Below, one piece after another: positions 6,986 through 42,607 of a DNA stretch of 44,282 nucleotides. Origin of the DNA: Candidatus Mediterraneibacter intestinipullorum (GTDB lineage Bacteria > Bacillota > Clostridia > Lachnospirales > Lachnospiraceae); the NCBI GenBank assembly GCA_019118665.1, contig DWYM01000057.1, positions 1 to 44,282 on the forward strand. The letters are read 5' to 3'. Within the stretch, counting starts at the first letter, position 1. Each line of letters opens with the position of its first letter. Under the pieces are notes generated by a model, which worked only from the letters and a program-made list of their open reading frames with translations, had not been told where the DNA came from and ran no database searches. A program made the translations under genes and the position numbers.

Positions 6986-7575
6986 TTATAGAAGATAAAG
7001 GGCAGCAGGCGGGAAAGCATGAAATGAAACACCGTTGGTTTGACTGGCATGAGGTAGAACTGCTGCAGGCTCCGCTTCCAGTCGGAGACTATGTACTGGC
7101 AGATGATAAGGTGCTGGACGTGATCCAGAGAAAGACCCGGCGGAGTCTGGAACTGAAAAAAATGGACTTTCTCGGAAGCTATAAAATCGCCGTCGACACC
7201 AAACGGGACATGCAGGAAATCACAGGGAACATCTGTGGGAAACAGCATCCGAGATTCCGGGACGAGTGCATTCTGGCGCAGAATAACGGCATCAAACTGT
7301 ATGTCTTGATCGAAAATACAGATCAGATCACCTGCCTTTCCGATGTGGTGAGATGGAAGAACCCGCGGATGGCACGCTATGAAAAGATCAAACGCATGCA
7401 CAGCATCGGGAAATGGCGGAATGTGAAGCTGCCGAAGTCTACACCTACATCTGGAGAAATCTTGATGAAGGCTATGCAGACGATGCAGGAGAAGTATGGT
7501 GTGAAGTTCCTGTTCTGTCATACGGAAGAAGCAGGAGCGCATATCATTCGATTATTGACATACCAGGAGGGCTGA
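6979..7575 (+). CDS. ERCC4/XPF-type structure-specific nuclease
   Basis: A 198-residue protein with LPVGDYVLADD (G36-D37), then a DxK motif VDTK (72-75) and GKQHPRFRDECILAQNNGIK. This is the order of a phage ERCC4 nuclease domain, in which the usual ERK appears as VDTK. Between the GD and DTK motifs it carries an extra segment of roughly 20 residues (DVIQRKTRRSLELKKMDFLG) with a second, degenerate ERK-like triplet (QRK). XPF-like nucleases cut branched DNA, so resolving recombination or replication intermediates is the likely job. It overlaps the previous gene and is followed 1 nt later by the DUF4373 gene. Which triplet is catalytic is inferred. Confidence 0.75.
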   Translation: MLIIEDKGQQAGKHEMKHRWFDWHEVELLQAPLPVGDYVLADDKVLDVIQRKTRRSLELKKMDFLGSYKIAVDTKRDMQEITGNICGKQHPRFRDECILAQNNGIKLYVLIENTDQITCLSDVVRWKNPRMARYEKIKRMHSIGKWRNVKLPKSTPTSGEILMKAMQTMQEKYGVKFLFCHTEEAGAHIIRLLTYQEG

Positions 7576-7576
7576 C

Positions 7577-8470
7577 ATGGCAAGACCACAAAAGGTAGGA
7601 CTTGACTACTTTGAGTTGGATTGCCACATGGATGAGAAAATAGAATTGATCGAAGCTGAGTTTGGGCTAAAGGGTTTTGCAGTGATCGTCAAGTTGTACC
7701 AGAGCATATATTCGGGATTTGGTTATTACTGTGAATGGACTCCCGAAATCTCCGTGCTGTGGGCGTATCGGCTCGGATGTACCCGCAGTGTGGACTGTCG
7801 GAATGTTGGCAGTGTGTGTGAAGAATGTGCGCTGCCCGGATTCCCCAATAACTTAATAAATGAGATCGTTGCAGCTTCGATCCGGAGGAACATTTTTTCA
7901 GGAGAACTTTTCAAGAAATATCGGATTCTTACCTCATCTGGAATCCAGAAAAGATATTTGAACGCAGTGTCCAGGCGCGAAAGGGTAGAACTGAAAAAAG
8001 AGTACCTCTTAATTAGTGTTGGCAAAAATCTTCAAAATGTAGTCATAAACTCAGTTAATGATAGCAGAAACTCAAAAAATGAATACGAAAATACGCAGAG
8101 TAAAGAAGAGAAGAGTAGAGAAGAGAATTATATATCACGCACTCCAACGGAGCGCGATGCAGATTCCCTGGAAGAATTCTTTGAGTCCATCTGGAAATTG
8201 TATCCCATCAAAAAGGGGAAGGGACAGGTGTCAAAGACCAAGAAACAAAAACTCCAGCGGATTGGGTATGACCAGATTAAGCGCTGTGTGGAACGGTTCG
8301 TAAAGGATATGGAGTCGGAACATCGCGATAAGAAGTATTGGATGCATGGAAGTACGTTTTTTAATTCCGGCTATGTGGATTATCTGGATAAGAATTATGA
8401 TTCTGAAATTCCTGAGAAGGAACCAGAGATTCCGGAAGAGGAAGAAGAATTGGTAGGTGATGACTGGTGA
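7577..8470 (+). CDS. DUF4373 (Lin1244/Lin1753-like) replication initiator-type protein
   Basis: A 297-residue protein. The N-terminus MARPQKVGLDYFELDCHMDEKIELIEAEFGLKG... is the DUF4373 winged-helix domain found at the start of many Firmicutes phage replication proteins. It contains a short cysteine-bearing insert (CRNVGSVCEECALPGF, about residues 73-88). After a lysine/glutamate-rich linker (about 160-190) a second helical domain (LEEFFESIWKLYPIKKGKGQ, KRCVERFVKDME) resembles DnaD/DnaB-type C-terminal regions. The end is highly acidic. Such proteins usually bind the phage origin and load the helicase encoded next door. Its stop overlaps the GTG start of that helicase. Confidence 0.75.
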   Translation: MARPQKVGLDYFELDCHMDEKIELIEAEFGLKGFAVIVKLYQSIYSGFGYYCEWTPEISVLWAYRLGCTRSVDCRNVGSVCEECALPGFPNNLINEIVAASIRRNIFSGELFKKYRILTSSGIQKRYLNAVSRRERVELKKEYLLISVGKNLQNVVINSVNDSRNSKNEYENTQSKEEKSREENYISRTPTERDADSLEEFFESIWKLYPIKKGKGQVSKTKKQKLQRIGYDQIKRCVERFVKDMESEHRDKKYWMHGSTFFNSGYVDYLDKNYDSEIPEKEPEIPEEEEELVGDDW

Positions 8471-16642: not shown

Positions 16643-17665
16643 ATGACGAAAAAAGATATTTTCAAAAATGATATTTTAATGGCTATGAAGCATCACCTGA
16701 AAGCGGATCAGATGGCGATCCTGGAAAACGTGCTCTCAGAAGCTCTGTACCGCGTTGACATCGTGGAGATGGAATGTCTGCCGGCGACCATTGACATGAC
16801 CAATGAATATATCCTGAGTCTTTATGAGCTTAAGAAAGGATCGCGGCTGTCTCCGGATACTATGCGGGCATATATGATCACCTTCCGGGAGTTTTTGCGC
16901 TACGTGGACAAGAATCTGCTCCAGGTAACACAGGAGGACGTTGAGCATTACCTGCGGACAAAATATCGGGAAGGGAACGGAAACGCATCCCTGAATAATA
17001 AGCGTCGGAAGCTGTCCGCACTCTTTGAATGGATGAGAAAAAGCGGGCTGATCTTGAGAAATCCGGTGGAAAATATCGAGAAATTTAAAGAGATCCTGGC
17101 TCCGATCGACCATATGGAGGCGGAAGAGGTGGAGCAGCTGAAGAATGGATGCCGGACGAAACGTGACCGCGCGCTGATCGAATGGATGCGCTGCACAGCC
17201 ATGCGAAAGGGGGAAATCCCGGAGATCACGATCAACCAGATTGACTGGCAGAAAGGCCGCGTGATGATCTATGGATCGAAGGGAAAAGCATTCCGGACGG
17301 TCTGTCTGGACGCCATTGCCCTGAAATATCTGCGGGAATATATCGTGGATGAGCGCGGCCTGGATCTGCGAAGTACTCAGCCGTTGTTTACACATAACAG
17401 AGGGAATACCACACAGGCTTTGAGCAAAAGCGGGATATATTCCGAAATTAAGCGTATTGCGGCTGCTTCAGGGTTGGATCGGCGCGTGTATCCGCACTTA
17501 TTCCGGAAGACCACCGCAACCAACATCATCCGGCGCGGCGGGACGGATTCTGATGCCGGGGAATACCTGGGCCACAAGCCGCAGGGAGTCGCGGCACGGC
17601 ATTACGCATTTCGGAGCGAAGATCATACTGTAAAGATCTTTGAATCTTATGTGGCAGCAGTGTAA
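16643..17665 (+). CDS. int: Tyrosine site-specific integrase
   Basis: A 340-residue tyrosine recombinase. The N-terminal SAM-like DNA-binding domain (about 55-140) contains LSPDTMRAYMITFREFLRYV. The catalytic domain has all conserved residues: R188 (CTAMRKGE), K213 (GSKGK), H285 and R288 (HLFRKT), H311 (LGHKP) and Y321 (RHYAF). It integrates or excises the phage, or resolves multimers in the manner of XerD. It starts behind AAGGAGGAAAG. A phased set of 8-bp direct repeats lies 30-71 bp beyond its stop, where attP arm sites would be expected. Target site unknown. Confidence 0.9.
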   Translation: MTKKDIFKNDILMAMKHHLKADQMAILENVLSEALYRVDIVEMECLPATIDMTNEYILSLYELKKGSRLSPDTMRAYMITFREFLRYVDKNLLQVTQEDVEHYLRTKYREGNGNASLNNKRRKLSALFEWMRKSGLILRNPVENIEKFKEILAPIDHMEAEEVEQLKNGCRTKRDRALIEWMRCTAMRKGEIPEITINQIDWQKGRVMIYGSKGKAFRTVCLDAIALKYLREYIVDERGLDLRSTQPLFTHNRGNTTQALSKSGIYSEIKRIAAASGLDRRVYPHLFRKTTATNIIRRGGTDSDAGEYLGHKPQGVAARHYAFRSEDHTVKIFESYVAAV

Positions 17666-17694: not shown

Positions 17695-17736
17695 ATCAAC
17701 ATGCTATCAACATATTATCCACATATTTTTCAACAT
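17695..17736 (+). repeat. Four phased direct repeats, one a perfect DnaA box
   Basis: ATCAACAT (17695), ATCAACAT (17706), ATCCACAT (17717) and TTCAACAT (17729) start 11, 11 and 12 bp apart, so they lie on one face of the helix. Extended by one base to the left, the third gives TTATCCACA (17715-17723), the consensus DnaA box; the others differ from it by two bases. They could be integrase arm-type sites or a DnaA-binding cluster. Confidence 0.65.
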
Positions 17737-17740
17737 CTTA

Positions 17741-17769
17741 TTGAAAATCATCCATGGAAATGTTATAAT
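17741..17769 (+). promoter_or_regulatory. Sigma-70 promoter for the Panacea pair
   Basis: TTGAAA (17741-17746), a 17-nt spacer and a perfect TATAAT (17764-17769) predict a strong vegetative promoter. Transcription would start near 17776, about 40 nt before the antitoxin-like gene. It overlaps the end of the repeat array, so proteins binding the repeats could regulate it. Confidence 0.75.
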
Positions 17770-17817
17770 TCCTATACAAAACAAAGGAAATTTGAGATTG
17801 TGAAAGGAGAATTGAAC

Positions 17818-18249
17818 ATGTGGTATAGAGCATTAGAAGTGGCCAGATATATCATTACAAAGTGTTCGGAAATGGGTCTGCCTGTAAGCAATCTGAAATT
17901 GCAGAAGATGCTTTATTTTTTATGGGTGGATTACTATAAAAAAACTGGAAGAAAATTGTTTGCAGATGAAATATGCGCTTGGAAATTGGGACCGGTGGTA
18001 CCGGAAGTGTATTATGAATATTGCCAGTATGCGGGAATGCCCATAAATATGTGTTATGTTTCAGAAATAAATAAAGAAGATGAGTCTGTATTGGATGAAT
18101 TGATATTAAAGTATGTTGGTGTTTCCGCGAGCGAATTAGTAAGCAGGACTCATGCATCTGGTACTGCTTGGGATTATATTTTCGATAATGGAAAGGGTAA
18201 TAGGAAACCTATTCCATTTGATCTGATCATCAATAAGGAAATGAATTAG
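17818..18249 (+). CDS. Panacea (SocA-like, DUF4065) antitoxin-type protein
   Basis: A 143-residue protein that matches the Panacea/SocA domain over its whole length. It has VARYIITKCSEMGLPVSNLK followed by LQKMLYFLW, then ADEICAWKLGPVVPEVY, and the end part SASELVSRTHASGTAWDY. These are the family's conserved LQKLLYF, AWxxGPVVPxVY and HxxxxxW blocks. Panacea proteins (PanA) are antitoxins that neutralise many unrelated toxins encoded beside them. The start is the ATG behind GAAAGGAG, downstream of its own promoter; earlier in-frame ATGs would start upstream of that promoter. The downstream membrane protein begins 5 nt after its stop. Confidence 0.85.
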   Translation: MWYRALEVARYIITKCSEMGLPVSNLKLQKMLYFLWVDYYKKTGRKLFADEICAWKLGPVVPEVYYEYCQYAGMPINMCYVSEINKEDESVLDELILKYVGVSASELVSRTHASGTAWDYIFDNGKGNRKPIPFDLIINKEMN

Positions 18250-18254
18250 TTGTC

Positions 18255-19100
18255 ATGCTGATTGAAGAGCAAAGGAGAAGGCAAGACCTTCTGAAAGCAC
18301 GTATTTTAGAATTAGCAAAAGAGTCTTTGGACGAATCGGAGATACGAAAAGAAGTCTTGAGACTATTGGATATTTACAGTGGTGGATTCCGTCACAGTTA
18401 TGCGGATTTTTTCCCTATTATATCGGAGATCTCTCAAAATGAGCAGATATATGCCTTGGACTTTCTCACCAATAATTTATCGTGTATCTGCAAATGCATA
18501 GAAGATGATTTTGAATCAGGTAAGAATGAATTTACAGAGATACATTCTCAAATAAATAAACTCTGCGATCATTTAAACCTGGAAATAGGGAGATGGAATT
18601 ATTACTCCAAAAATGAAAAGAAAATAGAGGATTTGGAGTTAAGGAGCGTAGACCTGAATGAAGAAATGAAAGTTGCAGAACGAAAACTTACAAAGGCCTC
18701 TAAAAAAGCTTCATCGATACAAACGGAACTAATAGCTGTACTAAGTATTTTTGCAGCTATCGTTACAACTTTTTCAGGGAGTTTCACTTTCCTTGGAAGT
18801 GTCATGACTTCTATTAATGGAGCAGAGCACTATGAAGCTGTTGTAATGGCAGCTATAGTGTGTGGTATGGTTATTTTCAATACGTTGTTTTTAATGATGT
18901 ACATGGTTGGCAAAATCACGGAAAGGAATATATATGCCAGATGTGTTACTGAAGACTGTAGTTGTGAGAAAAAGTGCTGTGGAATTACCAAGGTAAGGAA
19001 AAGGTTACCATATGTATTTTGGTTTAATTTAATATGTATAGCAGGATGCATTGTTGATCTCGTGATTTGGTGGTTTGATATGGCAGGATATATTGGATAA
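18255..19100 (+). CDS. Candidate toxin/effector: coiled-coil membrane protein
   Basis: A 281-residue protein. The soluble N-terminal part (1-115) is helical. A charged coiled coil (about 118-158) leads to hydrophobic segments at about 158-182 and 195-218, a cysteine cluster CVTEDCSCEKKCC (230-242), and a last membrane segment at about 251-274. It has no enzyme motif. It lies 5 nt after the Panacea gene, has little ribosome binding site of its own and ends in a strong terminator, so the two form a bicistronic unit. Membrane-acting toxins are one known class of Panacea partners, so it may depolarise the membrane. That is inference; no toxin family was recognised. Confidence 0.6.
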   Translation: MLIEEQRRRQDLLKARILELAKESLDESEIRKEVLRLLDIYSGGFRHSYADFFPIISEISQNEQIYALDFLTNNLSCICKCIEDDFESGKNEFTEIHSQINKLCDHLNLEIGRWNYYSKNEKKIEDLELRSVDLNEEMKVAERKLTKASKKASSIQTELIAVLSIFAAIVTTFSGSFTFLGSVMTSINGAEHYEAVVMAAIVCGMVIFNTLFLMMYMVGKITERNIYARCVTEDCSCEKKCCGITKVRKRLPYVFWFNLICIAGCIVDLVIWWFDMAGYIG

Positions 19101-19242: not shown

Positions 19243-19282
19243 AAAAAATGGATTGAAGGGGATGCTATGAGTTATCCCCTTC
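19243..19282 (-). terminator. Intrinsic terminator of the serine recombinase gene
   Basis: GAAGGGGAT (19255-19263) and ATCCCCTTC (19274-19282) form a perfect 9-bp stem. On the minus strand it is followed after a short gap by six T residues (19248-19243). The stem overlaps the recombinase stop codon. With the plus-strand terminator it isolates two converging units. Confidence 0.7.
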
Positions 19283-20119
19283 AGGAAGAATGAACAGTTT
19301 CTTTTGACGCTCACGGCCGGTTATTTTCCCTTGTCGAAGAATGAGCCGCTGAACCTTGTTGAAGTCTTGTACAGTCCGGATTGACTCATAATTTCCCTTG
19401 TAGATGGTCCCCTTATAAACATTGTACCCGGCATATATTGGACGGGTCAGGATCTTATGAATAGATTCAGGATTAGGAATCTTCCCACGTTTTCCGCGAA
19501 AGCCCATTTCCCGACAGAGCGCGGCGACTTCAGAGATATTCTTGCGAAGCAGATAATTATCAAATACAAAATTGACATATTTAGCCTCTTCCGGGTTGAT
19601 CCGGAAAGAGTCTTTCCCGGCCGGATCATATCCAAGGACATCGGTGCATGTGCGCTTTCCCTGCCGTGCCCGTTCCAACATCCCCAGAGCCACGTTCTCC
19701 GCCGTTACTTCCCGTTCAAACTGCGCTACGGTCCCCAGCATGGAGCGAACCATGCGACCGGCGGGAGTATAACTGTCAAACGCTTCAGAGTAGCTTATAA
19801 GGGCTATGCCGAGCTTGTCCAACATCTCACATGATGCTGTCAGGTCTGCCAGACTCCGGGAAAACCGGGTCAGCTTCCAGACCAGAATCAGATTAAATCT
19901 TTTTTCCTGTGCGTCTGCCAGAAGAGCGATCATCCCGGGCCGGTGCCGGATATCTTTGGCGCTTATGCCCTCATCGCTGTAGATCTTATAGACCTGGTAA
20001 CGATGGGATTTACAATAATCCATCAATAACCGCTCCTGAGCGTCCAGGGAGTAGCCTTCTTCGGCTTGCTCGCGGGTGCTAACCCTTGTGTATATTGCCG
20101 CCGTTAATGTGGTTTTCAT
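19265..20119 (-). CDS. Serine site-specific recombinase
   Basis: A 284-residue protein. The resolvase catalytic domain opens with AAIYTRVSTREQAEEGYSL; the nucleophile is S14. It continues with LILVWKLTRFSRSLADL and AQFEREVTAENV. A 'recombinase' domain (about 160-250) follows, containing INPEEAKYVNFVFDNYL and IHKILTRPIYAGYNVYKG. It lacks the zinc ribbon and long coiled coil of large serine integrases (usually 450 residues or more), so it is a short form of that class, nearer transposon or invertase-type enzymes. The start follows AAGGAGGCAAAGCC. It is unrelated to the tyrosine integrase and lies at the end of a minus-strand block with its own regulator. Substrate sites unknown. Confidence 0.85.
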   Translation of the reverse strand: MKTTLTAAIYTRVSTREQAEEGYSLDAQERLLMDYCKSHRYQVYKIYSDEGISAKDIRHRPGMIALLADAQEKRFNLILVWKLTRFSRSLADLTASCEMLDKLGIALISYSEAFDSYTPAGRMVRSMLGTVAQFEREVTAENVALGMLERARQGKRTCTDVLGYDPAGKDSFRINPEEAKYVNFVFDNYLLRKNISEVAALCREMGFRGKRGKIPNPESIHKILTRPIYAGYNVYKGTIYKGNYESIRTVQDFNKVQRLILRQGKITGRERQKKLFILPEGDNS

Positions 20120-33244: not shown

Positions 33245-33859
33245 ATGTCAACGGCAGCGAAGACACCAAATTATAACTTGTCCCAGGTAGCAGGATCTGA
33301 TATTCCGGACTGGATTACAGACTATACATCGGACATGTCAAAGATAGATGCCGCATTAAAAGAGAATGCGGATGATATTGCCACTGTCAGGCCGGACGAA
33401 TTCAGTGAAGAATCGACCTATGCAGCAGGGGATTACTGTATAAAGGACAATGTGATATATAAAGCCAAGACAGCAGTCGAAGCCGGAGCATTTGATATTT
33501 CGGACTGGACAGCAACGACGATTTTTGATGAGCTTTCGGGACTAAATCAAAAGATGTCCGATTCTGGGTGGCTGATAATACCAACTGATTATCAGCCAAT
33601 AAGGTATCGAAAGATAGGAAAATGGGTTGAACTTATTTTTTGGAATGATAAATCTATACCGCAAGGGACTACGATTGGGACATTACCAGGGGGATTTAGA
33701 CCTTCCATTCCGGGTTATCCAAATGCTATATATATTCAAGATTCTTTTCCTCATTCTGAATCAGCTTTCATATCTGTGGATGCATCAGGAAACATTTTGG
33801 CAGAGAGTGACATTTCATCGGGCTGGTCATATTTTGTGGCAACATATATCGCTGAGTAA
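33245..33859 (+). CDS. Tail fibre/receptor-binding protein
   Basis: A 204-residue fibre. The N-terminus TPNYNLSQVAGSDIPDWITD anchors to the tail. A carbohydrate-binding-like middle (STYAAGDYCIKDNVIYKAK) and a short coiled coil (ELSGLNQKMSD) lead to a beta-rich tip (from about residue 107). The tip contains RYRKIGKWVELIFW and ends with ISVDASGNILAESDISSGW. The tip is homologous by eye to the orphan tip at 41435-41803 and to the C-terminus of the minus-strand repressor (41825-42187). It should determine host receptor choice. Confidence 0.7.
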   Translation: MSTAAKTPNYNLSQVAGSDIPDWITDYTSDMSKIDAALKENADDIATVRPDEFSEESTYAAGDYCIKDNVIYKAKTAVEAGAFDISDWTATTIFDELSGLNQKMSDSGWLIIPTDYQPIRYRKIGKWVELIFWNDKSIPQGTTIGTLPGGFRPSIPGYPNAIYIQDSFPHSESAFISVDASGNILAESDISSGWSYFVATYIAE

Positions 33860-33975
33860 TTGCTTAGTCCAAGTTAATTTTAATAAATTAAATTTTGATT
33901 TAGTTCACTAAAAGGTGGTGATATACATAGAAGTAGATAGGATTAATTAAAACTGAATAGGAACTTGTCAACGAA

Positions 33976-36888: not shown

Positions 36889-39800
36889 ATGGCGAATTAT
36901 AGCATAGACGATATAGAAAAGATGCTTAATAAGCATAAAAACGTCACATCTAATACAGAACATACTCCATCGAAAAAGATGGAAGTATCAAAGCGCCTGA
37001 ACAAAAGCGGGAGCCAAAGTGCCACATCTGGCCAGAAAGACGCTTCTGGAAAACAATGGTATAACGCTGGTGAGCTAAAAAGAAAACAGGATTCTCAACG
37101 TGCGGCTAAAACAGAGAAAAAAGTGAGGACAAGAAGTTCGGTCGGGAATGCACTCAGTTATTATAATGATCGGCAGAAGGATAGTCTTTCCGGAATGACC
37201 GGAGTAGCCCGCCAGTTAAAAAGAACCACTGCTGTACCGACAACGGAGAGAATTCCAAGCCTTGATACATCGAGTCTGGGAAAAGAGAGTTCCTCTCCGG
37301 TTCTCTCGACAGGCTCTGTTCAGAGGCAAGAAAGCATACCCGTCTTGACACAGGAATTTGAACCTCAGGAAGAAGTGTCAAGCACTTCTAACCCGCTTTA
37401 TGGTGCTTTGAGTGGGAAAATGTCAGAAGAGGACCGTAAGGTAATCCAGGAGTATGCAAGCGAATGGTTGAGGGATTATAACCGGCGCATTGCATCTGGA
37501 AGTATTTCTCAGGCGCAGGCGGCAAAAGACGCTACGGATGAGACTTCAATGTATGCAACTATGGTTAGGCTGAAGAATAAAACAAATCCGCTGGCGGCTT
37601 TTGTAACCGGGATTATGGACTCCGCACAGAACCTGCCTGGTGTTGGAACTGTACGAGACTGGATCGATAATCTGACACCGGGAGGGAATCCGTCCGGAAA
37701 CTTCATTGACCAATCCATAGAAGATGCCCGAACACAAAGCCCGCTTGCGCAGGGCGCCGGGAACTTAGCTATGGAGGTCGCAAAATATAACCTGGCCAGC
37801 GGCATTATGTCTGATATTCCAAGGGTTCAGGCGGCAAGAGAGGCGCTTTCCGGAAGGATTGCAAGTGCTTTAAGTCCCGGCGGAAATGCTGCAGCTGCAG
37901 CAGCGGCTGGAAATAGAATCCCGGAGCTCGTCGGAGGGGCAGCGGCGAATGTTCTGAGTGATCTGTCGCTGGATACTGTTTTAGATACACTTCCCCGTGC
38001 GGCGGATGATGTCAGGGCGGGTAGGAGCGCCGGTGAAGTGGCAGGGAATGTCGCGCGAAGCATTGGAACAAATTTGGCATATAATGTTGCGGGCGAGGGG
38101 TTGTCACAGATCGTTGGAAGAGCGCTTCGAAATAGAGCCAGAGGAACGGAGCTTGATCCTCCTGGAAGTCTTGAAAACGGCTTAGAACGGTCTGGAACGG
38201 CATTGAATGAGGCTGCAGATTCCGCAGAGACAGTAATGCGGAGGACGGATGGACTTTCGCCCTTGGGAAATATCCCGGCCAATGGGCGGACCGGCAGCGC
38301 GGTATCAGATGTAATGCCTCCATACAGAGTTGCCGCAGAAAGTGTGGATGATAGAACGGCGAGATTGACGGAAGAAATCCCGACTCTTCGAGATCCTGAA
38401 ATATCTGCGCGCTCTGGCGAGGATCTATTAAATGGAAGCAGGTCCAGACGCACGGCAACAATTGACGGCAGAGATGTTGTCGAGGAGAGTTATGGTAATA
38501 ATATTGCCAGGGGCAGAGTACAGGGTGTTTCCGATGAGATTCAAAACGAATTCATTGACAATCCGGCATTTTATGAAGTTCTGAGCAATGAAGAAACTTT
38601 ACAGCGGGCACAGCGGATTTATGATTCTGGATCTGCAGAAAGCCAGATCTATCGTTTGCTGGACGCAAAATCTCCTGAAGCTGTCCCGTTGGCGAATAAG
38701 ATCGTGTCAGATATGATTGATTCTGGCCGGAAGGACGAAGCTGTGGAGCTGCTGAGGACTGTCTCGCAGAAACTTCGTGAAGGCGGCCAGTTTACACAAG
38801 CTGCTGCAATTACCATGATGAAGAGTGATCCGGATACCGCATTGAGATATGCTGTCCGTGACATAGATAATATGAACGCGGCAGGCCGGCAGAAGTTTGG
38901 GAATCGTTGGACGGATTTTTCCTTGACGGATGATGAGATAGAAATGTTCGGAAAAATCAAACCGGGAGACACTGACGCGATCAAAAAGGCATATGAAAAG
39001 ATTGGGGCGCGGCTTGCAAAGCAGTATCCGTCTACCAGGTGGGAGAAGTTTGTGGAGCTGTCACGCGTGGGCATGCTTTTGAATCCGAGAACACAGATCA
39101 GGAATATCGTATCGAACGCATTATTGCAGCCGGTCCGTTCTTTGACGGATCGTGTGTCTGCGCTCGGGCAAAACGCCATCCATTTGATAAATCCGGATTT
39201 CAAGGTCACTCAGTCCCTTACAGGAGGCGGAAAGGCAGAGAAAAAACTGGCAAGAGAAGTCTGGGATGGTGTGAAAGAAAGCCTTTTGGGGAGTTCTGCG
39301 TCAAAATGGGACTCTGGGCTGAAAAGTATCGCTGGAGATAAGCAGGTGTTTAAGGGCAGTCCGATATCGAAGATCTTTAACAGAATTTTCCCAGGGGCGA
39401 TATCCAGAGCGAATGCAGCTATGGGGCGAAACGTGGATGATTCCCTGCTGGAGACGGTACGAAATTTCACATATTATCTTCTGGAAGCCGGTGATGAGCC
39501 TTTTGTCCGCAACAATTTTGTGAATCGCCTTGCTTCATATATGAAGGCACAGGAGATAACTTCCCTCGATCAGATCCCGGAGGATGCGATAACGCTCGCA
39601 GCGGATGAAGCGTTGAAAGCGACGTTCAAGGACGATAACGCACTGACACGGACTTTTTCAAACTTGAAGAAAAACACCGGAAAAGTTGGGGAAATCGTTA
39701 TGCCTTTCACAAAAACACCTGCGAACCTTGCTATGAGAGGAATTGATTACAGTCCGGTGGGACTTGTCAACGCCTTCAAGATGGTAAAAGATAAAAAAGG

Positions 39801-41382
39801 CGCATCGGAAATCATGGATTATTTGGCGAAGAATCTGACCGGAACAGCAGCAATAGCTGCCGGATATGCTCTTGCCAAAAATGGTATCATTACGGGTGCT
39901 TTATCCAGCGATAAAGACGAAGCGGCTTTCCAGAAACAGCAGGGAGAATTGGCCTATTCGCTTAAGATCGGAGATAATTATTATACTTATGACTGGGCGC
40001 AGCCTGCAGCTATTCCGTTTATTCTGGGTGCATCCATGTACCAATCTATTGCCGAGTCAGAGGATGAATCAAAAACAGCTATGGACAGATTTGAACGTGC
40101 CGCAGATATGGCCGGACAAGCCGCGGTTAGCGTATCAAATTCCTGGCTGGAACTGTCCCCATTACAGTCGCTTGCTGATATTTTTGATACGGGAAATGGC
40201 GGATCTGTCCCGGAGAACTTCATCAATGAGGTGTTGGAATTTCCGCAACGGTTTATACCATCGGCTTTGGGCGCCGCCGCGCGTACAGTAGATCCGGTAC
40301 AGCGCCAGACGTTTTCTACTGATCGACCAATTCAGACGCAGATTAACACGGCCATATCGAAGATCCCGTTCCTGAGTGAAACGCTTCCGGCAGCTTATGA
40401 TACATGGGGCCAGGAAATCCGAAGAAGCGACAGTACAGGCGAAGCGGCATTCGCACAGATGGTTAATCCCGGTCAGCTTGGAAACTCTGCTGAAACGCCT
40501 ATTGATGGCGAGATACAGCGGCTCTTTGATGAAACAGGGAATAATGCTGTATTTCCACGCAAAGCAGAGTGGAAAGTCGGGGATACCAGGCTGACCAATG
40601 AACAGTACAGCGCACTGCAGCGGGCGCAGGGCACACTTTCCTATGAGTTGGCGGAAGGCTTTGTAAATTCTCCTGAATATGAACAATTTGACGATGCTGA
40701 AAAATCTGAGATCCTTGGAGATATGTATTCTCTTGCAAAGGCAGTTGCTGAGAATGAGCAGTTCGGGAAAGAGATGAGCGCTACAAATCAGAAGCTCTAT
40801 AAGATTTATAATGATCTTGGAGTGGAAGGAATTGTGCGTTATAACCTGTATAAAGGCATTAAGGACGAAGGAGGAGAAGGTGCTGCAGATAATGTTAAAG
40901 CGGCGCTGGAAGAAAGCAATATGAGTCTTTCCGAAAAGCAGGAAGTCTACGCGCAGTTGTATCCGAATACAAAAGAAGAGAATAACCCTTACACAGAAAA
41001 GAATTACGAAACGACAAATGCTACGGAAAGGATCAGCGCTTCTCTGGAATCTGATCTGAACAGATCCCAGGCGTATTCGCAGCTTGGTATTCTTCGCTTT
41101 GATTTTGATGATAAGATGGAAAGTTTTACGAAAGCTCTTGCAAAGCATGAAGTACAGGGAACGGAGTTGAGCGCGGAAAACCAGAAGTTGAAGACAATCT
41201 ATGATAATGATGGGGCGGATGGGCTTGCCAGATATTACCTGTATAAAAAGAATGCCGACGCTGATGGGAATGGATCCCTGAGAAAAGATGAAATAATTCC
41301 ATACTTGGATTCGCTGGGTCTTTCTCAGCAGGAGAAAAGGACATATTTCTCATATCTAAGCTCAGCAAAAAATCCATATTAA
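36889..41382 (+). CDS. Giant internal virion/ejection-type protein with EF-hand repeat
   Basis: At 1497 residues it is the longest protein here. The N-terminal 150 residues are basic and disordered. Alanine/glycine-rich, possibly membrane-active stretches follow (about 300-420). A helical core contains RWEKFVELSRVGMLLNPRTQ, a segment seen in large phage virion proteins. Near 985 is a hydrophobic segment (LTGTAAIAAGYALAKNGIIT). Two related ~60-residue repeats close the protein; the second carries a perfect EF-hand loop, DADGNGSLRKDE (1457-1468). It may help DNA cross the envelope. It starts behind TGGAGGTCAGGT, 15 nt after its partner. Confidence 0.55.
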   Translation: MANYSIDDIEKMLNKHKNVTSNTEHTPSKKMEVSKRLNKSGSQSATSGQKDASGKQWYNAGELKRKQDSQRAAKTEKKVRTRSSVGNALSYYNDRQKDSLSGMTGVARQLKRTTAVPTTERIPSLDTSSLGKESSSPVLSTGSVQRQESIPVLTQEFEPQEEVSSTSNPLYGALSGKMSEEDRKVIQEYASEWLRDYNRRIASGSISQAQAAKDATDETSMYATMVRLKNKTNPLAAFVTGIMDSAQNLPGVGTVRDWIDNLTPGGNPSGNFIDQSIEDARTQSPLAQGAGNLAMEVAKYNLASGIMSDIPRVQAAREALSGRIASALSPGGNAAAAAAAGNRIPELVGGAAANVLSDLSLDTVLDTLPRAADDVRAGRSAGEVAGNVARSIGTNLAYNVAGEGLSQIVGRALRNRARGTELDPPGSLENGLERSGTALNEAADSAETVMRRTDGLSPLGNIPANGRTGSAVSDVMPPYRVAAESVDDRTARLTEEIPTLRDPEISARSGEDLLNGSRSRRTATIDGRDVVEESYGNNIARGRVQGVSDEIQNEFIDNPAFYEVLSNEETLQRAQRIYDSGSAESQIYRLLDAKSPEAVPLANKIVSDMIDSGRKDEAVELLRTVSQKLREGGQFTQAAAITMMKSDPDTALRYAVRDIDNMNAAGRQKFGNRWTDFSLTDDEIEMFGKIKPGDTDAIKKAYEKIGARLAKQYPSTRWEKFVELSRVGMLLNPRTQIRNIVSNALLQPVRSLTDRVSALGQNAIHLINPDFKVTQSLTGGGKAEKKLAREVWDGVKESLLGSSASKWDSGLKSIAGDKQVFKGSPISKIFNRIFPGAISRANAAMGRNVDDSLLETVRNFTYYLLEAGDEPFVRNNFVNRLASYMKAQEITSLDQIPEDAITLAADEALKATFKDDNALTRTFSNLKKNTGKVGEIVMPFTKTPANLAMRGIDYSPVGLVNAFKMVKDKKGASEIMDYLAKNLTGTAAIAAGYALAKNGIITGALSSDKDEAAFQKQQGELAYSLKIGDNYYTYDWAQPAAIPFILGASMYQSIAESEDESKTAMDRFERAADMAGQAAVSVSNSWLELSPLQSLADIFDTGNGGSVPENFINEVLEFPQRFIPSALGAAARTVDPVQRQTFSTDRPIQTQINTAISKIPFLSETLPAAYDTWGQEIRRSDSTGEAAFAQMVNPGQLGNSAETPIDGEIQRLFDETGNNAVFPRKAEWKVGDTRLTNEQYSALQRAQGTLSYELAEGFVNSPEYEQFDDAEKSEILGDMYSLAKAVAENEQFGKEMSATNQKLYKIYNDLGVEGIVRYNLYKGIKDEGGEGAADNVKAALEESNMSLSEKQEVYAQLYPNTKEENNPYTEKNYETTNATERISASLESDLNRSQAYSQLGILRFDFDDKMESFTKALAKHEVQGTELSAENQKLKTIYDNDGADGLARYYLYKKNADADGNGSLRKDEIIPYLDSLGLSQQEKRTYFSYLSSAKNPY

Positions 41383-41417: not shown

Positions 41418-41434
41418 ATTTACTATTTCAAAAT

Positions 41435-41803
41435 ATGAACGGCCTTGAAGATGATATATCTGAATTGACATCAGATATGTCAGGAAAACAAAATAAAATA
41501 TCCAATCAGACTTTTAAATTTACACCGAATGATGCCGGTATTACTACCTCTTCAATACAGTGTTTCCGGTATGGGAATGTCTGTGTTGTTACAGGTACAT
41601 TCACGCCTAATCAGGCAGGAACGCCACTCACACTTGGGAGTTTTAATGTACACCCAACACAAACTATTACATTTCCCATAAATGGATATGAGAAAGTTAC
41701 GGGTTATGGGACATTAAGTTCATCAGGTTTATTTCAGTGCAATATTCCAGGAGCAATGGCAAACGCGCCTTGTGCTATTAATTTTGCATTTTTAACCACA
41801 TAA
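41435..41803 (+). pseudogene. Orphan tail-fibre tip (no ribosome binding site)
   Basis: An intact 122-codon frame whose product is a fibre tip. A short coiled coil (LEDDISELTSDMSGKQNKIS) leads to a beta-rich domain (SIQCFRYGNVCVVTGTFTPN, then GTPLTLGSFNV). The domain resembles the tip of the fibre at 33245-33859 (RYRKIGKWVELIFW; GTTIGTLPGGF). No ribosome binding site precedes the ATG (ATTTCAAAATATG), and a terminator lies just upstream, so it is probably not expressed as it stands. It lacks the tail-anchoring N-terminus. It is best read as a spare tip cassette or fibre remnant. A dyad ATATCTGA-N7-TCAGATAT (41456-41478) lies in its coiled-coil part. Confidence 0.65.
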
Positions 41804-41824
41804 AATCACTTTTATCCGAACAAT

Positions 41825-42187
41825 TTATTTGAATCTGTATAATCTTACGACTGTTTCGTATCCAGATATTACACCTGGCCCAGCAGCAATTAAAATATTT
41901 CCTTGAATTCCTACACTTATGTTCCAGTTACCAGAGGACGTATTTATTAGAACAGGAATGACAGCTTTATATCCAGAAAGATAGTAGGTCTCAGATTTTT
42001 CACCATTAATTATATAGTCTGCAGAAACTCCAAAATAACTTGCTACTTTTTCTATTGAGCTATGACGTGGTTCCTGTTTTTTCCATTTCGTAACAGAACC
42101 TTTAGCGATTCCAATAGCTCTTTCAAGTTCAGATTGTGATATTCCTCGCTCCTTACATAGATTAATGATTCTATCATGTATTCCCAT
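41825..42187 (-). CDS. CI-like HTH repressor fused to a tail-fibre tip segment
   Basis: A 120-residue protein. Residues 1-70 are a typical Cro/CI HTH domain (ISQSELERAIGIAKGSVTKW, then VASYFGVSADYIINGEK and SETYYL). Repressors of this kind normally continue with a helical NED/AQEIF-type stretch. Here residues 71-120 are instead beta-rich: SGYKAVIPVLINTS, ISVGIQGNILIAAGP, VISGYETVVRLY. They align with the fibre at 33245-33859 (ISVDASGNILAESD; SSGWSYFVATY). The join is in frame at about 41977/41978. It starts behind TTGGAGG on the minus strand and is divergent from the Cro-like gene, so it is probably the immunity repressor. Confidence 0.7.
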   Translation of the reverse strand: MGIHDRIINLCKERGISQSELERAIGIAKGSVTKWKKQEPRHSSIEKVASYFGVSADYIINGEKSETYYLSGYKAVIPVLINTSSGNWNISVGIQGNILIAAGPGVISGYETVVRLYRFK

Positions 42188-42200
42188 GTATTACCTCCAA

Positions 42201-42383
42201 TGTTGAAAAAAATCAACAAAAGGTATTGACAAACTGATTAAAAGCAGTATAATAAAATCAATCGCTGATAAAAAGCAACGATAATTGATAAAGAGTTGAT
42301 TTTTTTCAAATAATATTTCGTGGTAGTTATATTGTAGAATAAATTCAGCGAAAAGTCAATAAATAATTGAGTAAATTCAGCGA
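42201..42383. promoter_or_regulatory. Operator region of the immunity switch
   Basis: The 213-bp gap between the repressor and the Cro-like gene holds TCAGCGA three times: inverted at 42262-42268, and direct within TAAATTCAGCGA at 42340 and 42372 (32 bp apart). It also holds the dyad TGTTGA-N6-TCAACA (42201-42218) and a partial copy TTGA-N6-TCAA near 42296-42309. These are candidate repressor and Cro operators. A leftward promoter may use TTGCTT/TATTAT on the minus strand (-10 at 42250-42255). Confidence 0.6.
42226..42253 (+). promoter_or_regulatory. Rightward early promoter
   Basis: TTGACA (42226-42231), a 16-nt spacer and TATAAT (42248-42253) are both perfect elements. The start point would lie about 140 nt before the Cro-like gene. 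The 5' leader covers the TCAGCGA sites, and the TGTTGA dyad sits just upstream. Confidence 0.75.
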
Positions 42384-42400
42384 TTAGAGGAGGTGGAAAT

Positions 42401-42607
42401 GTGATTTATGAGAATGTGGAAGCTATAGCAATTAAGAGAGGCATTTCTTTAGCGGAAGTAGAGCGTAAGGCAAATTTATCTAAAGGAGCAATCACTAAAT
42501 GGAAGACAGCAAGTCCGACAATAAAAAGCCTTTTGGCAGTTTCCAATGTTCTTGAAGTGAGTATCGAAGATCTGACAAAGAGCGAAGGGAGTGAATCTAA
42601 TGATTAA
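42401..42607 (+). CDS. Cro-like HTH regulator
   Basis: A 68-residue single-domain HTH (ISLAEVERKANLSKGAITKW, then SLLAVSNVLEVSIEDLTK). Its recognition helix SKGAITKW resembles AKGSVTKW of the opposing repressor, so both may read the same operators. It starts with GTG behind GAGGAGGTGG; an ATG 2 nt earlier is out of frame. It is the first gene of the rightward early transcript and overlaps the next gene by 8 nt. Confidence 0.75.
   Translation: MIYENVEAIAIKRGISLAEVERKANLSKGAITKWKTASPTIKSLLAVSNVLEVSIEDLTKSEGSESND

Follow-up and report, generated by a model that had tools for sequence, protein, structure and literature searches.

A repressor frame joined to a probable fibre tip in a Lachnospiraceae phage: likely scar of a lysogeny-block deletion beside a putative store of fibre tips

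Known systems of tip exchange and lysogeny loss

Tail-fibre inversion by Gin, Cin and Min is carried out by serine invertases that act on dyad-symmetric sites. As in these systems, which PMC6109161 mentions for Mu, P1 and p15B, the phage described here has alternative fibre ends in opposite orientations together with inverted sites. The closest known system, however, is the Rin shufflon of Bifidobacterium prophages, for which the accessible part of the same paper (PMC6109161) describes a tyrosine recombinase, 11-bp asymmetric sites and dissimilar tips, and which according to the available text of PMC8778435 is also present in Eggerthella lenta prophages. For the loss of lysogeny, two precedents are relevant. 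D29 is obligately lytic through a deletion in the repressor gene, as stated in the excerpt available from PMC6550527, and TP-778L, in the portion of PMC3952083 that is accessible, arose by aberrant excision at copies of the integrase gene because attR was lacking. TP-J34L was considered as a further precedent of a deletion in the lysogeny region and was rejected, since the deletion given in the accessible portion of that paper (PMC3952083) lies in the receptor-binding gene.

The window, which is the whole stretch of 44,282 nucleotides analyzed here, shares several properties with the Rin shufflon as far as the available text on the latter goes (PMC6109161): the constant N-terminus of the RBP or fibre with dissimilar interchangeable tips, the short asymmetric crossover site before the tips, the occurrence of tips in both orientations, and a XerD-like tyrosine recombinase, in our case a candidate, that is distinct from the integrase. 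The putative exchange system differs from that description in having two site pairs, one for the expressed tip and one for a spare pair of tips, about 7.5 kb apart across the lysis and late genes, so that the tip store is split over two loci; in the position of the candidate recombinase gene, which is remote from both loci; and in the site itself, here ACTANNTCAAAA with another central pair at each locus, in a system that is known from sequence alone. Unlike in Gin, Cin and Min, asymmetric sites are found here, and the enzyme proposed for them belongs to the tyrosine recombinases, although the window also encodes a serine recombinase. No description of a two-locus tip store in Lachnospiraceae phages was found in the openly accessible literature.

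As in D29 (PMC6550527) and TP-778L (PMC3952083), so far as the accessible parts of both reports tell, loss within a repressor gene or abnormal joining of prophage ends would have left no normal lysogeny block; unlike in these phages, the repressor frame is here fused to what is most likely a fibre-tip cassette, and the integrase and attP are gone too. If our preferred reading holds, the chimera is a concrete example of one-step loss of lysogeny in a temperate gut phage, with the scar left in the repressor gene. In addition, the comparison reveals a putative two-locus system of fibre-tip exchange, whose sites can be searched for and whose recombinase can be tested. The coordinates of the features are collected in Table 1.

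Table 1. Features of the window that bear on the chimeric frame and the fibre tips
Feature	Position	Strand	Basis
XerC/D-like tyrosine recombinase, candidate tip recombinase	16643..17665	+	
Serine recombinase, 284 aa, alternative candidate tip recombinase	19265..20119	-	
Expressed fibre gene: conserved N-terminus (about residues 1-102) and variable tip	33245..33859	+	
Crossover site ACTAAATCAAAA inside the fibre gene, at the base of the tip; the sister diverges 2 bp behind it	33541..33552	+	
Site copy in inverted orientation behind the fibre gene; opens into a 7-residue stub	33893..33904	-	
1497-aa gene, the last one conserved ahead of the storehouse; stands at the right end of the sister prophage	36889..41382	+	
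Terminator-like hairpin after the 1497-aa gene and before the storehouse; identical in L047	41386..41418	+	
Left storehouse crossover site ACTATTTCAAAA, same in the sister, which diverges 2 bp further on	41422..41433	+	
Spare fibre tip of the storehouse, presumably silent; its frame is open in the phase of the site	41435..41803	+	
Chimeric ORF, 120 aa: repressor HTH (residues 1-70) and tail most likely derived from a fibre tip (71-120)	41825..42187	-	
Probable tip-derived part, in the minus-strand storehouse tip slot; no crossover site before it	41825..41977	-	position versus L047 7816-8101; pairwise similarity weak
Repressor-derived part: Cro/CI-type HTH and linker	41978..42187	-	profile matches, C-termini of relatives
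Three operator-like elements (ATCGCTGAT at 42261; TTCAGCGA at 42344 and 42376) between repressor and cro	42261..42383	.	
Divergent Cro-like HTH gene	42401..42607	+	profile matches

Fibre tips and putative crossover sites in the window and in a sister prophage

The searches yielded a single close relative, initially as a record of IMG/VR and then in place in the chromosome of Lachnoclostridium sp. An196 (contig NZ_NFJZ01000002.1), a strain that presumably comes from the chicken gut. Stretches longer than 250 bp are 90-98% identical between this sister prophage and the window, and all matching stretches (87-98%) total about 29.7 of the 44.3 kb of the window and follow the same order. The end and the start of the window correspond to positions 2255 and 2369 of the sister locus L044, inside one 496-aa gene and 113 bp apart, and we take the contig to be a near-complete circular phage genome (circular map). 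At the left end of the sister prophage, tRNA-Gly(gcc) is followed by a 437-aa integrase, two genes of 154 and 144 aa, and then the 144-aa repressor and cro. The right end of this prophage reads the 1497-aa gene, a hairpin, TTTACTATTTCAAAA, a plus-strand tip, a minus-strand tip, an inverted TTTACTATTTCAAAA, a second hairpin and a 3′ piece of the tRNA. In this An196 store (L047 7534-8142), the first in-frame Met of the plus tip comes only at residue 45 of 86, and the hairpins lie outside both sites; therefore, the store looks built to be silent.

The pattern ACTANNTCAAAA, which has two free positions, has three copies in the window, at 33541 (+), 33904 (-) and 41422 (+), and four in the sister, at 8418 (+) and 8890 (-) of L046 and at 7534 (+) and 8101 (-) of L047. 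It was present nowhere else in the 11 sequences scanned (the window, L039, L040, L044-L047, L049-L051 and L053), with no copy in L044 and L045. The pattern was composed after the first sites had been seen, and its mean number in shuffled sequences was 0.08 for the window (maximum 2), 0.02 for L046 (2 observed) and 0.0 for the 906-bp An196 store (2 observed). All seven copies adjoin a tip and point into it, and six of the seven tips stay open for 43-126 codons in the codon phase of the fibre, the seventh being a 7-residue stub. The sites that bracket the tips are inverted 12-nt sequences, both around the expressed tip and in the An196 store, and in both phages ACTAAATCAAAA stands at the base of the fibre tip with an inverted copy after the fibre gene. 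The central pair of the site differs between the two loci.

The fibres of the window and the sister are 94% identical over residues 1-107. At both loci, the near-identity of the two phages ends 2 bp after the site and the tips differ beyond it, which is the pattern that replacement of tips at this point would leave. No tip was seen in both loci, or in both orientations, when the window and the sister were compared. As in a Rin-type shufflon, the tips can be read in frame behind a constant fibre N-terminus that bears the site, and a short asymmetric site, rare elsewhere, stands at the start of each variable tip; the tip in the chimera is the one that has no site. On the minus side of the site-bounded segment of the expressed fibre, the window has only the 7-residue stub (33860-33904) where the sister has a tip of 109 codons.

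The spare tip on the plus strand (41435-41803), which had been missed in the initial annotation of this DNA, is all-beta in a low-confidence AF2 model (pLDDT 48). It was found neither in phage records (E up to 1) nor in IMG/VR nor, besides its own genome, in 397 genomes, and the expressed fibre tip was found in one of 195 genomes, namely its own. The latter also gave weak matches (E 0.1-0.8) to minor tail, BppU and otherwise named proteins in 14 phage records, and the PDB match of the fibre was tenascin with an E of 0.56. The divergence of the tips is too great for homology searches like those used here, so that short inverted sites may offer a workable means of locating stores of this type. 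A scan of IMG/VR for CATTTACTATTTCAAAA gave 74 stretches with one copy each in the DNA examined, and these were dismissed as chance. Among farther relatives of the 1497-aa gene (L039 and L040), nothing like the store was seen in the ORF lists just downstream, and L050, a relative of the fibre N-terminus, is without an inverted site pair around the fibre.

The chimeric frame and the missing lysogeny block

The initial annotation described the minus-strand frame at 41825-42187 as an immunity repressor whose C-terminus is the tip of a tail fibre. The frame exists as 120 uninterrupted codons, and its DNA occurs once in its own genome. A helix-turn-helix (HTH) domain of the Cro/CI type is confirmed at residues 1 to about 67, where 1-70 had been given (HTH_26, 5.3e-09; HTH_3, 5.4e-07; phrog_8, 1.6e-18), so that the chimera has the DNA-binding domain that defines a CI/Cro-type repressor. 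The join was placed directly after the usual SETYYL, and the relatives agree with this, as their linker ends there and is followed by a conserved C-terminal helix (YYL, then NEETA..). Among the 31 HTH relatives first compared, NEETA comes after YYL or YYF in two, L015 and the An196 repressor. A second set of 23 relatives was found with patterns from the An196 repressor, including its C-terminus, and contains near-identical rows; in 21 of these (rows counted by eye) the window HTH can be aligned up to YYL, YYI, YFL or YY. These 21 proteins then run into a C-terminal stretch, mostly of the NxETA..AQEIFENKEL kind (NDETAKVAQEIFENKELRALF is an example), and L166 reads GGETYYL and then NDETA at the border. 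The relatives with the same linker thus show what is lost in the window protein, namely its own C-terminal segment, which is replaced by the tail, and the repressor appears to be cut exactly at the border of linker and C-terminal part. AF2 gave no usable model of the chimera (mean pLDDT 38).

The tail is most likely fibre-tip coding DNA, and it is read so mainly by position and not by its sequence. The alignment by eye with the expressed fibre tip, named as evidence in the initial annotation, is weak when taken alone (score 37, reached by 19 of 2000 shuffles), and the fibre ORF ranks third among the 411 ORFs of the window for similarity to the tail. Because the sister has a minus-strand tip at the same place, where it meets a plus-strand tip tail-to-tail, we assign the tail to the tips of the store by position rather than to the expressed fibre tip by sequence. 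The profile search of the tail alone, which had been proposed as a check, gave no Pfam match and a best E of 0.58 with PHROGs. Homologues of the tail were found neither among 50,697 phage records (E up to 10) nor in IMG/VR with the peptide patterns used. Among 146 relatives, the tail had four matches at E up to 0.05 besides its own genome; these lie in ORFs that we recognize as V-type ATPase subunit I, with V-ATPase-like neighbours, and were dismissed as chance. Two more matches at E up to 0.01, in long ORFs, came from 397 genomes of the family, and the PDB match was chain B of 5e3e (E 0.027). No relative in which this repressor or this minus tip is intact was found in phage records, IMG/VR or the family genomes.

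Comparison with the sister suggests what happened at the join. A related prophage with an intact repressor had been named as a useful comparison, and the 144-aa repressor of An196, with its normal C-terminus, provides it. The window retains the hairpin, the left storehouse site and the plus tip, and the minus tip then runs into the repressor HTH and not into a second site. The right storehouse site is absent from the window, as are the terminator, the two genes and the repressor C-terminus of the An196 block, and the An196 att core has no match there with up to 3 mismatches allowed. For the An196-type integrase, the bin contains only a 30% partial match (E 8.6e-4) and a 76% piece of about 104 bp that lies beside another integrase. 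The integrase and attP of the relative are gone while the genome is largely retained, which is the composition of a deletion derivative. By the measures of An196, the missing block is about 2.7 kb, consisting of about 0.26 kb between the right site and the tRNA piece and 2.4 kb between the tRNA gene and the YYF codons of the repressor. Because no DNA of the sister matches the immunity region (window 41437-42475), the deletion is deduced from gene order and not from aligned flanks.

We therefore favor, as the likely explanation by gene order, that the chimera is the scar of a deletion of the lysogeny block, or of an aberrant excision, which fused a presumably silent tip to the DNA-binding domain of the repressor. 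In the ancestor, short inverted sites would have flanked the tip of an expressed fibre gene, and inverted sites of this type would also have enclosed a store at the far right of the prophage, in which two presumably silent tips lay tail-to-tail; a site-specific recombinase could have swapped the tips at these sites. The store would have been followed by attP and then, on the minus strand, by the integrase, two small genes and the complete repressor. A single deletion in the circular form of the phage, or an aberrant excision joining points just inside both prophage ends, would then have taken out attP and the integrase module, together with the right site and the 5′ part of the minus tip on one side and the C-terminus of the repressor on the other, and the remaining 5′ part of the repressor would read in frame into the remaining 3′ part of the tip. 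A single event of this kind would account for all the losses as well as for the fusion.

The initial annotation was right in substance in its observation, and its interpretation holds in part. It ascribed the join to an inversion or an illegitimate recombination, with the inversion putting fibre DNA on the wrong strand; however, the minus strand is the normal orientation of this slot in the sister, and the comparison points to loss of the block between tip and repressor instead of an inversion. Similarly, altered induction had been named as a possibility, and the missing block makes loss of lysogeny the probable outcome instead. The chimera would be without effective repression, as expected since the normal C-terminus is gone even though the HTH and the operator-like elements remain. 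Because the integrase and attP are missing, no lysogeny is expected, and the phage is probably virulent or defective.

The join may also have been made in the computer. In a metagenome-assembled contig, a chimeric read or the collapse of two variants of the phage could have connected the tip to the repressor while the real phage keeps its lysogeny block, and it is in accordance with this that the join is located where the block of the sister should be, that the contig is 113 bp short of closure, and that a chance join would be in frame in one case out of three. The bin is fragmented (123 contigs) and 83% complete, and an intact copy could therefore be missing from it. Nevertheless, no other contig of the bin carries an integrase module of the An196 type or a near-identical version of either the join region or the N-terminus of the repressor, and the matched parts of the contig keep the order of the sister, and we consider such an artefact unlikely.

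A deletion could also have been an accident of the tip recombinase, if it paired the right storehouse site with a site-like sequence in the repressor and deleted the DNA between them; the two sites would be in direct orientation, which leads to deletion. At the junction there is ACTATCTTTC (41985, minus), the pattern ACTA-N(0-3)-TTTC is limited to three places in the window, one of them the storehouse site, and the An196 repressor carries ATTATTTCAACG at the same codons. However, this pattern was picked after the sequence was seen, the conserved TCAAAA half is missing at the junction, the tip there is not in the usual codon phase of the sites, and ACTATTTCAAAA is matched often when up to 3 mismatches are allowed (12 times in L053, which has 5501 bp). 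The site-like sequences at the junction are indistinguishable from background and were rejected, which leaves an accident of this type quite improbable. An 18-nt inverted match between 40694-40711 and 41989-42006 was likewise rejected, being at chance level (E 1.59).

Another reading takes residues 71-120 as the genuine C-terminus of the repressor, with the loss ending between the stop of the plus tip (41803) and that of the repressor (41825), no fusion, and a resemblance to the fibre that arose by chance. The weak pairwise score with the fibre and the failure to find a homologous tip agree with it, as do the match of phrog_4 to the whole protein, which covers residues 2-90 and thus reaches into the tail, and the 17 of 500 phage records that align over at least 80% of the protein. 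These include short repressors of Lactococcus phages, which align weakly up to residues 96-99 and share a W..xVxxxGxxL stretch. When the tail was compared with six proteins that reach residues 96-109, however, 100, 373, 284, 185, 458 and 340 of 1000 shuffles were at or above the observed score. In addition, repressors with the ..ETYYL linker go on with NxETA..AQEIFENKEL, and the tail occupies the slot of the minus tip beside the plus tip and the left site. We regard a genuine C-terminus as very unlikely.

Integration-dependent immunity, described in mycobacteriophages and suspected in bifidophages in the text available from PMC6109161, would have attP inside the repressor gene, and the window would then be the viral form with an extra tail that is replaced on integration. 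The map is circular, a repressor with an odd 3′ end is next to the prophage ends, and an atypical 3′ end of the repressor gene also figures in the accessible account of Brujita-type phages (PMC6109161). Unlike in that account, attP was not found in or near the repressor gene of the window, and the sister integrates separately: its att site, the 3′ end of tRNA-Gly, lies next to a separate integrase at a distance of about 2.2 kb from the repressor gene. Moreover, neither an att core nor a tRNA arm was found in the window, and a search with the join region gave nothing convincing in the rest of its own genome (best E 0.85), which makes this mechanism hardly credible. Also very improbable is a programmed one-way switch from temperate to virulent growth, in which the right storehouse site would recombine with a site-like stretch in the YY(L/F)NEE codons of the repressor, remove the lysogeny block and leave the HTH-tip fusion. 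A chimera made in this way, perhaps oligomerized by the tip, would still occupy the operators or act dominantly on resident prophages.

Candidate tip recombinases

For the putative exchange of tips at the two loci, the XerC/D-like tyrosine recombinase is the candidate enzyme. It differs from the An196 integrase and lies about 16 kb from the fibre. A relative with 51% identity was found in the human-gut phage scaffold MT839831.1 (L143), where its direct neighbours are two tail-to-tail ORFs flanked by inverted repeats (17 nucleotides exact, 22 near-exact), a layout that equals that of the An196 store. One of these ORFs carries an LPEGFRP motif, which we take to be associated with fibre tips. With the tips judged by eye, this was the only one of 15 recombinase loci with a recombinase beside a tip pair, and the enzyme is therefore kept as a candidate and a lead. 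The alternative candidate is the 284-aa serine recombinase.

Three further observations were made at these loci. The ORF pair at 1944-2548 of L143 is unannotated and tip-like, with TAAATAATAATTTGCAC as its repeats and a hairpin outside, and it forms a second storehouse-like layout with a different site. When the serine recombinase of the window is aligned with CcrB/CcrC-type models, which are 542-558 long, the match covers no more than their first 235-241 positions, and the enzyme is possibly truncated. Directly 3′ of the tyrosine recombinase, at 17701-19100, the window has a gene for a SocA/Panacea-type antitoxin and a second gene, predicted by eye to encode a membrane protein. This pair is missing in the sister, where the recombinase and the next conserved DNA are about 10 bp apart, and the position appears to be a point of cassette exchange adjoining the recombinase.
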